Assembly (NCBI RefSeq): GCF_000374445.1
Contig: NZ_KB894418.1
Span: 62,001-126,000 of the forward strand
DNA length: 64,000 nt
DNA from: Actinokineospora enzanensis DSM 44649
GTDB lineage: Bacteria > Actinomycetota > Actinomycetes > Mycobacteriales > Pseudonocardiaceae
Direction of reading: 5' to 3'
Shown: positions 14,469 through 27,353 of the stretch, one piece after another
Position numbering within the stretch: position 1 is the stretch's first letter
Layout of the letters: each line of letters opens with the position of its first letter
Translations under genes and position numbers: made by a program
Notes under the pieces: model-generated
Seen by the model: only the letters and a program-made list of their open reading frames with translations
Databases searched by the model: none
What the model was told of the DNA's origin: nothing

Positions 14469-14666
14469 GGGGCTCAGCTCCTCGGCCTTCGGTGTGGATG
14501 GGCTGTGACCAGAATCTGGTGAAACTGGGAAGCGCCGAAAGACCGCAGGTCAACCTGTGGACAACTGAGCGGATTGTGGATAACTCGCCGTTACGCGGAG
14601 GGTCGCGAGCCGAATCTGTCGGTGATGTAGGGCAAGCTGGAGGGGGAAGCCCTGCCGCGGAAATGG

Positions 14667-14702
14667 GACGACCCCCGCCAGGGGGGAGGGGCGGGGGCCG
14701 TC
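14667..14702. terminator. GC-rich hairpin between ssd and the HAD gene
   Basis: Thirteen-base arms (14667-14679 and 14690-14702) with a single A-C mismatch around a short purine loop. It lies in the 5' region shared by the divergent ssd and HAD genes, so it may be a terminator for read-through or a structured leader. The rest of the 420-base gap (14469-14889) shows nothing else recognisable. Confidence 0.4.
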
Positions 14703-14889
14703 AACGGGTTCAGCCCCGGGGGGTCGGACTGAACCGGCCTGGCTCTCGGCCAGGTAGGCATACTGTATCCCCTTCCCACCCTCCCATGGCCACATACGGC
14801 AGAAGACACCCGCCCGAGTTCTGCTCGTGTCGCGTACGTCGCTGCGCCGGGTGGCCGAACGCGTGGGTGCCCGCTCCTATGCTGACCTG

Positions 14890-24197: not shown

Positions 24198-25589
24198 TCA
24201 GCCCGCGTCCACTGTGCGCTCGCGCGCGTGCCGAGGGCCGGGCAGCGGGATCGCCGGCGTGACCCGGATCTGGTTGCGGCCGCCGTCCTTGGCCTCCGCC
24301 AGCGCCTGGTCCGCGAACTCCTGCAAGGTCGCCAGGTCGGTGCCATGCTCCGGGGACAGCGCGATACCGCCGGAGATGGTGAAGTCGCCGACCAGTTCGG
24401 TGCGGCCACCGGCGGCCTTGGTCAGTTCCACGGTCATGTCCGCGACCGCGGCGCGGATGCGTTCGGCGATGGCCCACGCGTCGGCGCGGCTGGTGCCCGG
24501 CAGCAGCACCGAGAACTCCTCGCCGCCCCACCGACAGACCAGGTCGTCGCGGCGGACGCTGGCCCGCAGCACCAGGGCCAGGGCCTTGAGCACCTCGTTG
24601 GCGCCGAGGTGGCCGAGCCGGGAGTTGACCTGCTTGAACCGATCCAGATCGAACATCATCACCGCCGTCGGCCGCTGCCGCGCCTGGTCGGCGACCAGCG
24701 CCAGCGCGGCGGCCGGGTTGAAGCCGCGCTGGTTGGCCAGGCCGGTCAGCGGGTCGTGCAGCGCGTCCACCTCCAGCCGGTCCCGTTCCAGCTCCAGCTG
24801 CTCGATGCGCTGGGTGTGCCGGGTGTACCCGACGACCACCGCCAGCAGCGCGGCGAGCACCAGCCCGTAGGCCACGCCGGAGCTCCACGCGGCGATCAGG
24901 CCAAGGCAGAGGGTGATGGCCAGGTCGGCGTTCTCCTTGCGGTTGCCCATGATCGCCAGCCAGGAGCGGTCGCCGCGCAGCCCCCGGGCGACGCCGATGA
25001 CGATCGTCTGGGCGGCGTAGTACGCGGCGAACGCGGCGGCCACCGCGATGGTCGCGCCGAGCATCTTCCGCGGGTCGACCGGCGCGCCGCGGGCCCACTC
25101 GTGCACCGGAGTGGCCACTGCCAGTGCCTGCGCGGCCAACGCGGAGGACATGATGGCGAATGTGGTGAACACATAGCGCCCCGGTGGTTTCCGGGCGATG
25201 AAGTACCGGCGCAGCCGGATGATCAGAACCAGTGCTACCACCAGCGGTACCGGCAGTACGAACGCGCCCGCGGTGGTCCAGACCCCGGTGTGGTCGATGT
25301 GCTCACCGGACAGGTGCGCGGCCCGACGGCGTTCCTCCGCGGGCTTGGTAGCCTCCATGTGCAAAATCGCGCCGACCGCGATCAGCGCGAACAGCCGCAG
25401 CGACAATGCGTCCGCCGGGCCCGCGGTCACCGTCCCGGTCACTGCCCAACCGAAGATCGTGATCTCGGTCACCACGATCCACAGGAAGCCCCACGTGGTC
25501 GTGTGCGCCAGCAGATCGAGTGCCCGAAGCCGCTGGGGGAGGGATATGCCGATCAAGCAAGAGTCTCTGGGACTTGTCAGACTGGGCAT
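24198..25589 (-). CDS. membrane-bound diguanylate cyclase (GGDEF)
   Basis: A 463-aa protein that should make cyclic di-GMP from GTP. The N-terminal two thirds hold about eight membrane helices (residues 25-260), a MASE-like sensor. The GGDEF domain occupies about residues 290-445, with DPLTGLANQRGF, MMFDLDRFKQVNSRLGH (metal Asp) and the active-site loop RWGGEEFSVLLPG. RRDD five residues upstream is an intact product-inhibition I-site. The last 20 residues are basic. ATG 25589 follows AAAGGGGGACA. It is divergent from the mini-ORFs at 25681 and 25770. Confidence 0.94.
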   Translation of the reverse strand: MPSLTSPRDSCLIGISLPQRLRALDLLAHTTTWGFLWIVVTEITIFGWAVTGTVTAGPADALSLRLFALIAVGAILHMEATKPAEERRRAAHLSGEHIDHTGVWTTAGAFVLPVPLVVALVLIIRLRRYFIARKPPGRYVFTTFAIMSSALAAQALAVATPVHEWARGAPVDPRKMLGATIAVAAAFAAYYAAQTIVIGVARGLRGDRSWLAIMGNRKENADLAITLCLGLIAAWSSGVAYGLVLAALLAVVVGYTRHTQRIEQLELERDRLEVDALHDPLTGLANQRGFNPAAALALVADQARQRPTAVMMFDLDRFKQVNSRLGHLGANEVLKALALVLRASVRRDDLVCRWGGEEFSVLLPGTSRADAWAIAERIRAAVADMTVELTKAAGGRTELVGDFTISGGIALSPEHGTDLATLQEFADQALAEAKDGGRNQIRVTPAIPLPGPRHARERTVDAG

Positions 25590-25680
25590 TGTCCCCCTTT
25601 GCGACAGACGGGACACTGAACGTGACCCGCGGCGGGCGGGATGCGTTCGGTCCCCCGGGACCCGAGAGGGAGGTAGCACC
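25590..25680 (+). promoter_or_regulatory. divergent upstream region of the cyclase and the mini-ORFs
   Basis: The only place a promoter for the plus-strand mini-ORFs can lie. No clear -35/-10 pair is seen. The GAGAGGGAGG just before 25681 is a strong ribosome site. Confidence 0.35.
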
Positions 25681-25701
25681 ATGCGGAACCGCGAGTACTG
25701 A
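25681..25701 (+). CDS. six-residue mini-ORF MRNREY, first copy
   Basis: ATG, five sense codons and TGA encode Met-Arg-Asn-Arg-Glu-Tyr. GGAGG at 25669-25673 lies 7 bases before the ATG, an ideal ribosome site. An almost identical unit follows 89 bases downstream. The two differ at a synonymous Arg codon (CGG against CGC) but keep the same peptide, stop codon and the following GCCG, a sign that the peptide itself is selected. No gene follows on this strand until acs. It could be a signal peptide, a tiny precursor, or a minigene that affects translation; none of these is established. Confidence 0.5.
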   Translation: MRNREY

Positions 25702-25769
25702 GCCGAAGTGCCGGAGCCACGGCTCCCGCTGTCGTCCCAACCGTACGCGCAGCCGAGGAGGAAGCCGAG

Positions 25770-25790
25770 ATGCGCAACCGCGAGTACTGA
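25770..25790 (+). CDS. six-residue mini-ORF MRNREY, second copy
   Basis: Second ATG-to-TGA unit with the same six residues. AGGAGG at 25756-25761 lies 8 bases before the ATG. Between the copies is a small GGAGCC/GGCTCC hairpin (25713-25726). No modifying enzyme (P450, radical SAM, YcaO, peptidase) is encoded next to it: the neighbours are a diguanylate cyclase and an MFS exporter, both on the opposite strand. The exporter may be unrelated. Confidence 0.5.
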   Translation: MRNREY

Positions 25791-25887: not shown

Positions 25888-27075
25888 TCACGCCACCGCC
25901 TCCTTCGGGACCGTCGACCTCCCGTGATGCCAGACGAAGCCCGCTATCGCGCAGCCTATGGTCCCCACCACACCGGCGAACGCGATGGTCAACGAAGCGG
26001 ACCCGAACAATTCGGTGAGCAGGCCGCCTGCCAGTACCGACATTCCCTGGCCCGCTCGCAGTCCGGTGCGCACCATCCCCGTGGCGCGCCCCGTGACCGC
26101 GTCCGGCAATAGCTCCACATAGGCCGATTTGGCCAAGATCTGGTACGCGGCGCCCAAACCGGACGCCGCGAGCAATACCGCCGCGAGCACCGGGTGCGGG
26201 CGAACGGCGAAGAACACCAACGCGCCAAGGCAGAGCAGCGACAGCGGGGCGATCAGCGCGTGCTGGGAGTCCCGCGGTCTGCCCGCCCGACAGAACAGGT
26301 AGGCACCGAACACCAGACCGAGCGGGTCGGCGGCGAGCAGCAGGCCGACCGTCCAGGTGGGAGCGCCGAGCTCGTGCACCAGCGGCACGATCAGGCCGTG
26401 CGGCATGACCGTCAACGCGGCCAGTAGCGACAGCGACACCACCGCGCGCCTGCGGCGGTCCGGTCGGAGTATCCCGGACGTGGCAACGGAAGCAGTGCGT
26501 GCGGCCGGACGGGCCCGCATGCCGAACCGCAGCAACGCCGCCGAGGCCAGGAAGGTGAGCGCGTCCAGGGCCAGCGCGGGTGTGGTGCCGAGCAGCGCCA
26601 CCACCGCGCCCGCGCCCGCCAGCCCGACGAGCTGGCCGACCTCACGCAGCGTGGTCAGCCGGGCCTGTCCGGCGGCGAGGTACTCGTTGCCAAGCAACAC
26701 CCGGGCCTGCGCGGTCTGCGCGGCCTTGAACGGCGCCTGCGCGGCCGCTTCCAGCGCGACGCACACCGCAACCAACGCAACAGGCGCCCCGGGAATGGCC
26801 ATCACCCCCACGACCACCGCCTGGCTCAGGCACGCCACCACCATCACCTCGCGGCGCGGAAACCGGTCGGCCACACCGGACAGCAGCGGGCCTGCGACGA
26901 TGTCCGGCAGGAAGGTGAGCGCGTAAGTCAGCGCGGTCAGGGCAGCGGAGGAAGTGCGCTGGTAGACCAGGACGGAAATGGCGACGCGGGCCAGCTGATC
27001 CCCCGCCACGGACTGTGCCTCGGCGATCCACAGCGCGCGGAATTCCGGGCGTGCGAGATGCGACTCCCCACCCAT
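25888..27075 (-). CDS. MFS transporter
   Basis: A 395-aa protein with about 12 hydrophobic helices, so a drug/efflux-type major facilitator. The loop after helix 2 has GVADRFPRREVMV, matching the MFS motif A (GxxxDRxGRR). The middle basic loop (RPDRRRRAVVS) separates the two halves. ATG 27075 is preferred because GGGGGGACGG lies upstream; GTG 27087 is the alternative. The substrate is unknown. It ends 98 bases past the second mini-ORF, facing it. Confidence 0.9.
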   Translation of the reverse strand: MGGESHLARPEFRALWIAEAQSVAGDQLARVAISVLVYQRTSSAALTALTYALTFLPDIVAGPLLSGVADRFPRREVMVVACLSQAVVVGVMAIPGAPVALVAVCVALEAAAQAPFKAAQTAQARVLLGNEYLAAGQARLTTLREVGQLVGLAGAGAVVALLGTTPALALDALTFLASAALLRFGMRARPAARTASVATSGILRPDRRRRAVVSLSLLAALTVMPHGLIVPLVHELGAPTWTVGLLLAADPLGLVFGAYLFCRAGRPRDSQHALIAPLSLLCLGALVFFAVRPHPVLAAVLLAASGLGAAYQILAKSAYVELLPDAVTGRATGMVRTGLRAGQGMSVLAGGLLTELFGSASLTIAFAGVVGTIGCAIAGFVWHHGRSTVPKEAVA

Positions 27076-27353
27076 CCGTCCCCCCACCAGCGTCGGTATC
27101 TCCTGCCTGGATCACCGTCGACCACGGTACGTCCCCACCAGGCTACTTTCCGCAGAATCGGAAGAGGACAGCCGAACGGAGCAGATGCCCCCCGATCGGA
27201 CGAACTTGGAAAGCGCTTCGATTGGGTCGCTACTGGTCTACACCTATGCGGTGTCGGACTGTCCCCGCGAACCCGGGAGCACTAGATTCTGGTGTCGACA
27301 GCCGGCCGCTCCCGTCGAGCGGAGCCGGATATTCACCTGAGGAGGTCAGGCCC

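Follow-up and report, generated by a model that had tools for sequence, protein, structure and literature searches.

Tandem micro-genes for a complete hexapeptide beside a membrane cyclase gene of Actinokineospora enzanensis belong to a wider actinomycete system

Two MRNREY micro-ORFs between a cyclase gene and an MFS gene

We analysed a 64,000-nucleotide stretch of the Actinokineospora enzanensis DSM 44649 genome (assembly GCF_000374445.1, contig NZ_KB894418.1, positions 62,001 to 126,000; hereafter the window), in which two very short open reading frames (micro-ORFs) each encode the hexapeptide MRNREY. Both are where the original prediction, made by a model from the letters alone, had placed them: ATGCGGAACCGCGAGTACTGA at 25681-25701 and ATGCGCAACCGCGAGTACTGA at 25770-25790, each reading MRNREY followed by a stop codon. 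As had been claimed, they have good ribosome-binding sites, with GGAGG at 25669-25673 (+ strand), 7 nt before the first start, and at 25757-25761 (+ strand), 8 nt before the second, and the two copies differ by a single synonymous Arg codon (CGG/CGC). In the setting described earlier, the + strand array is flanked by a GGDEF gene and a major facilitator superfamily (MFS) gene that are both on the - strand. The 5' region from the cyclase start to the array (25590-25668, no strand assigned) adjoins a TTGTCAGACTGGGCATTGTCC stretch, which overlaps the cyclase start and is present in 11 of 11 loci of the genus. Scanning the array region for sigma-70-like promoters and terminators yielded none, Rfam gave no match at the array at the gathering threshold, and the region 3' of the array folds no better than shuffles. 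A longer ORF at 25198-25701 (167 aa), in frame with the first copy, was rejected as its source because it is antisense to the GGDEF gene and because the second copy lies in a different frame.

The gene divergent to the array (24198-25589, - strand, start codon ATG at 25589-25587) encodes a predicted membrane diguanylate cyclase of 463 aa, with a transmembrane sensor region at about residues 32-260 and a GGDEF domain (PF00990, E-value 1.6e-41) whose GGEEF motif agrees with the GG(D/E)EF signature; residues G355, G356, E357 and E358 are invariant across 43 aligned cyclase homologues. The architecture is like that of the MASE and 7TMR diguanylate cyclases, which join a multi-transmembrane sensor to a GGDEF output, and no such sensor was among the Pfam matches listed for the 43 members (25 of 28 families, E-values up to 1). 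Stray membrane-protein matches of the sensor region, found in 1 to 8 members, had a best E-value of 0.002 or weaker. The membrane domain appears to belong to no Pfam family. It weakly resembles the S-components of energy-coupling factor (ECF) transporters (RibU, ThiT, PanT), a match that is no more than suggestive at 10-13% sequence identity, and it differs from them in being fused to a GGDEF domain. On the other side, the MFS transporter gene (25888-27087, - strand, start codon provisional) is convergent with the array, and its product is of exporter type, the best models being the H+ antiporter TIGR00900 and EntS with scores below their cut-offs; no solved structure was sequence-related to it at an E-value of 0.001. 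Four window proteins including these neighbours were scanned by Pfam and matched neither a modifying-enzyme family nor a cytochrome P450.

Conservation within the genus

The MRNREY unit with its ribosome site was found in 11 of 16 Actinokineospora genomes. All 11 close orthologues of the cyclase (at least 75% identity) carry two micro-ORF copies upstream, and in the comparison of homologous intergenic regions that the original prediction had proposed, the hexapeptide, its copy number and its order are kept in 11/11. Selection on the peptide, also part of that prediction, is borne out by the codons: the exchanges among genus copies are CGG/CGC, AAC/AAT and CGC/CGT/AGA, all silent, among them the replacement of the Arg codon CGC by AGA in one genome, and the residues are constant apart from the start codon. 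The latter is GTG in eight and ATG in three of the first copies (in genome G006 an alternative in-frame ATG is possible two codons further upstream) and ATG in all 11 second copies. GGAGG stands at spacing 7 before micro-ORF 1 in 10 genomes, the remaining one (G013, locus L050) having AGAGAGG. What did not hold up is the GCCG noted 3' of both stop codons, which is not kept in relatives, where copy 2 is mostly followed by other bases.

The MFS gene is fragmentary or undetected in four of the 11 loci (G003, G009, G012, G013), with micro-ORFs and cyclase intact. At two diverged cyclase homologues, in G010 (67% identity) and G001 (54%), we detected neither micro-ORFs nor an MFS gene. A GTDB-wide scan for the motif with a ribosome site returned nine stretches, all from Actinokineospora (the window's own record was possibly excluded), and the exact motif had no occurrence in viral contigs.

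Arrays across the family

Beyond the genus, a protein search gave 54 cyclase matches at an E-value of at most 1e-50 in 36 of 120 genomes of the window's family. Divergent upstream micro-ORFs that end in R, then D or E, then one further residue accompany 39 of 50 cyclase homologues examined (26/30 and 13/20), and two of the 11 homologues without an adjacent micro-ORF are from a genus in which it sits about 4 kb away. C-terminal cores include DREY, DRDF, DRDW, SRDW, VRDW, SRDF, GRDF, NRDF, NRDM, DREA, DREL and DRET, each micro-ORF has a ribosome site, and the arrays range from 1 to 23 units, the largest being in G013, where 23 (R)SRDW units, mostly 60-75 nt apart, occur in addition to two RNREY units. 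Searching with the nucleotide pattern GGAGG-RTG-..-GAYCGNGANNNNTGA matched 68 of 200 family genomes, in 22 of 46 genera, and the reversed pattern gave no match. The window's own genome has three arrays that face three cyclase paralogues (MRNREY in two copies, RGDREL in three, SRDW in 11), and no array was found at two further sensor paralogues (C2, C3). In total, 63 of 75 sensor loci have micro-ORFs (201 copies) and 12 have none, numbers that give no prevalence since many loci were chosen by motif. The copy finder required an R[DE][WFYLMAT] end, leaving outside the count micro-ORFs such as MRSRAW (L165) and LSGRNF (L162).

Clustering the called genes of 51 loci showed which neighbours recur: GGDEF genes in 43 and MFS genes in 37, followed by five clusters in 23, 22, 21, 21 and 21 loci that look like the shared synteny of one cyclase clade, with the exception of a short-chain dehydrogenase cluster (21 loci) that is also present in two SRDW loci. 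A direct comparison of 41 loci identified GGDEF homologues in 37 and MFS homologues in 30, so that the GGDEF/MFS setting noticed earlier recurs well beyond the genus. In most loci, array and MFS gene converge. In L133 the MFS gene lies downstream of the cyclase, and in the SRDW loci L190-L193 it shares the strand of the array; a dehydrogenase gene separates the two in both of the SRDW loci tested (L190, L191).

Two observations concern individual loci. In the genus with the distant micro-ORF (L150, L122 and L124, from three genomes), the peptide is MRDREM, other genes lie in the roughly 4 kb between it and the cyclase, and the gene divergent to the cyclase encodes what looks, by eye, like a cytochrome P450. 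A radical SAM-like protein (by eye; L115:4510-5331, - strand), with a C-terminal tail very rich in Cys and Pro, is encoded near the MSQGDRDM micro-ORF of G007.

Selection on the peptide and co-inheritance with the cyclase

In each of the 50 family arrays with two or more copies, all copies share their last four residues, and pairwise comparison of the last four codons gave 464 synonymous and 0 non-synonymous differences. The copy finder itself fixed R and limited the last residue to seven; it put no constraint on the fourth-last residue, on whether D or E follows the R, or on which of the seven stands at the end. Residues before the core do vary within arrays (M, V or L at the start, then S, T, A, R or N), and the 24 bases 3' of the stop differ at 0.34-0.76 per site. 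Because change is synonymous only and the spacers are divergent, gene conversion is a poor explanation of core uniformity, which points instead to one partner that would read the C-terminal tetrapeptide.

To follow core and cyclase together, we mapped the cores on a tree of 72 cyclases, from which three short rows (L139, L157, L160) were omitted. As would be expected of a pheromone whose ligand core is inherited with the receptor lineage, the core labels need only 17 changes (the minimum is 12) compared with a mean of 46.7 when shuffled, and none of 200 shuffles was as low as 17; near-copies add to this clustering. Paralogous cassettes within one genome have cyclases of different clades and different cores. 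Both selection on the peptide and the pairing of peptide and cyclase genes are well supported.

Arrays with other sequences in other actinomycete families

The MRNREY pair belongs to a wider actinomycete system that spans several families. With a sensor-region profile (A3), 38 of 246 genomes of the class gave matches at an E-value of at most 1e-8, and it is through the sensor domain only that arrays outside the window's family, which have different sequences, were detected. Divergent upstream micro-ORFs are present at 23 of 29 loci fetched there, 18 of them with at least two copies, and the other six loci have no recognisable micro-ORF. The peptides include MRDNTWT, MRDTTWS, MRDNNWN, MRDSNWT, MRANSWD (family f34), MRHTSWS, MRSVQWA and VRGWKWS, and, among single copies accepted by resemblance (Trp near the end), MRDVHWG, MASVVQWG and MLRGVTWT. 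Some of these arrays lack uniformity: RDVNWT and RDSNWT occur together in L201, and L207, L212 and L238 vary near the end. Over five codons, counting only ORFs that end in W plus one residue, we found 83 synonymous and 20 non-synonymous differences. An MFS homologue is present in 12 of 20 larger regions (the 20 include two short contigs and the window's own genome), all 12 of which have an array (two read by eye), and four of the eight regions without one have a micro-ORF.

At one of these loci (L239:5380-5770, genome G472) the array unit is MRDTNWVLRDTNWSW, with the core twice inside one ORF; the array lies between the sensor gene and the MFS gene, and a second sensor gene follows the MFS gene. 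At the two tested loci of family f34 (L230:4843-5904, L233:7532-8593), a gene for a lactonase-type seven-bladed propeller (PF10282) directly follows the cyclase gene.

Tests against chance

To recover arrays without a motif, we searched for two ORFs with ribosome sites that lie 45-130 nt apart and have identical last four residues, covering both strands of the window and of 70 fetched loci (71 sequences; 2,062,138 bases), most of the loci having been fetched for their arrays. Such pairs occurred in 39 of the 71 sequences and, by core, were all the described arrays, with one exception, an out-of-frame by-product within an array (L247); in the 64 kb window the MRNREY pair was the only one. An order-1 resampled copy of the scanned DNA contained 458 such ORFs and no pair.

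Motif searches of the class matched 31 of 394 genomes, two of them family members. Among 31 matches outside the family, two were in frame with a DR[DE]x end (MADREC, VPARDRER) and were taken as chance because each is a lone match. A two-unit pattern was found in 2 of the 394 genomes, namely the window's genome and one chance-like match, and a similar one in 7 of 170 family genomes; both are too narrow for measuring prevalence. VRDRDM (L121), MSDRDF (L127) and MTDREW (L135), which are beside neither a cyclase nor an MFS gene, were excluded from the arrays and still counted in the totals of 51 loci for neighbours and 71 sequences for the scan. The lone MSDRDF of G126 (L127:7334-7355, - strand) has a ribosome site and lies amid genes that look prophage-like by eye, with a terminase-like protein near; the chromosomal array of this genome has the matching core DRDF, which may reflect phage mimicry or chance. 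The lone MTDREW of G247 (L135:7613-7634, - strand) comes after a gene for a small membrane protein, close to what by eye is a response regulator, and G247 has a DREW array elsewhere (L136).

Proposed mechanism and alternatives

The explanation that we favour, with confidence evenly balanced between acceptance and doubt, is that an exported, directly translated micropeptide is sensed by the divergent membrane cyclase. MRNREY would be the directly translated ligand and the cyclase its partner. The peptide, probably deformylated and in some arrays relieved of its methionine, would be exported by the adjacent MFS protein, and its C-terminal tetrapeptide would bind the cyclase membrane domain from outside, changing the level of cyclic di-GMP (c-di-GMP) and hence development; tandem copies may raise the peptide dose. 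Such a locus would then form a self-contained cassette of peptide signal and receptor, and some cells would have several separate ones. Among the roles first suggested for the hexapeptide, a signal peptide or exported cargo of the MFS protein fits best, and a trap for ribosomes or tRNAs fits poorly.

On a broader scale, we tentatively propose, at slightly less than even confidence, a new class of actinomycete cell-cell (or self-) signalling, in which the genes of polycistronic arrays would each encode a finished penta- to octapeptide, exported by a dedicated MFS protein and read by S-component-like membrane diguanylate cyclases, with several specificities per cell. Phr, NprX and other Gram-positive pheromones resemble the proposed signals in having 5-8 residues when mature, their own receptors and paralogous specificities in one cell. 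They differ in that cleavage releases them from longer secreted precursors and that their receptors are cytoplasmic; in the present loci the ORF is no longer than the peptide, and a membrane GGDEF protein would be the partner. Tiny genes and peptide pheromones are known, whereas tandem genes that each encode just a complete short peptide, paired with a membrane cyclase, are apparently new, and we found no description of such arrays in the open-access PMC literature (preprints and subscription-only papers not included). To our knowledge, the signals sensed by membrane cyclases are mostly unknown. Most cyclases examined here come with candidate ligand genes, so that a receptor-ligand pair is directly testable with a synthetic peptide, and many more such pairs could be read from genomes. 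If the proposal is true, the arrays of up to 23 units mean that genes of five or six codons exist, multiply as such and easily escape gene finders. In sporulating actinomycetes c-di-GMP controls development, according to a paper on BldD (PMC4151990).

A first alternative, which we consider unlikely yet deserving of attention, is that the peptide stays inside the cell and binds the cyclase, or some other partner, from the cytoplasm, either as a ligand in autoregulation or as an inhibitor; the MFS gene would then be a hitchhiker. This would suit a peptide that lacks a signal sequence and has no processing enzyme recurring beside it, as well as the four genus loci that lost the MFS gene and retained the micro-ORFs, and a cytoplasmic position is conceivable for both basic loops of the cyclase (81-102 and 124-136). 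It is at odds with the recurrence of MFS genes beside arrays in several arrangements and families, and with locus L120, where a micro-ORF and an MFS gene occur with no cyclase homologue within the fetched 15 kb; the weak S-component resemblance also predicts an outward pocket.

We regard as improbable a device at the level of translation or RNA, that is, either minigenes whose translation ties up ribosomes or tRNAs or causes stalling, or a regulatory RNA whose stability, or whose antisense pairing with the MFS mRNA, depends on translation of the short ORFs. Strong ribosome sites, very short ORFs and series of up to 23 are what such minigenes might look like, and the window array, because it converges with the MFS gene, might act as its antisense. 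Different arrays of one genome encode different peptides, which is needless for a generic ribosome effect and is why the trap proposed originally fits poorly. Nor does the window array resemble a leader peptide or attenuator, since the next gene is convergent and no same-strand gene lies downstream in the window; the position of arrays relative to the MFS gene differs between loci, and the 3' region shows the unremarkable folding given above.

Slightly more doubtful still is that the micro-ORFs encode precursors of modified or antibiotic peptides, either microcin C-like or ribosomally synthesized and post-translationally modified peptides, exported by the MFS protein and with production regulated by c-di-GMP. 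The exporter type of the MFS protein would agree with this, and the microcin C7 operon encodes an MFS exporter, MccC. Short precursors of microcin C-like systems end in Asn, and biarylitides need two aromatic residues for their cross-link. Precedents for the size exist in microcin C7 mccA, which gives a directly translated formyl-peptide of seven residues (PMC6495379), the kind of product proposed for our arrays, and in the 18-bp biarylitide genes for pentapeptides, which are among the smallest genes known (PMC13417212) and share their extreme smallness. Compared with microcin C7, the present genes form tandem arrays, lack the C-terminal Asn and are paired with a cyclase: the window copies end in Tyr and the 201 family copies in F, W, Y, M, A, L or T (required by the filter), a variation unlike one chemistry. 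An MccB-like adenylating enzyme was seen neither among the four Pfam-scanned window proteins nor, by eye, among the recurrent clusters (no MccB/ThiF profile was run). Compared with biarylitides, the genes here are multi-copy, and MRNREY has one aromatic residue. GGDEF and MFS genes are the only ones to recur in most of the 51 loci, and the four window proteins scanned, as reported above, match no modifying-enzyme family.

Finally, a repeated DNA or RNA binding site that merely resembles coding sequence, which the repeat architecture and the almost invariant GACCGCGA-like cores across much of the family might suggest, is very improbable, given that variation falls chiefly at third codon positions, that AGC/TCN Ser and CGC/AGA Arg codons, ATG/GTG/TTG starts and TGA/TAA/TAG stops are exchanged, and that spacers vary.

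Elsewhere in the window, a 6C RNA (Rfam RF01066, 70.5 bits) lies at 14663-14738 on the - strand.
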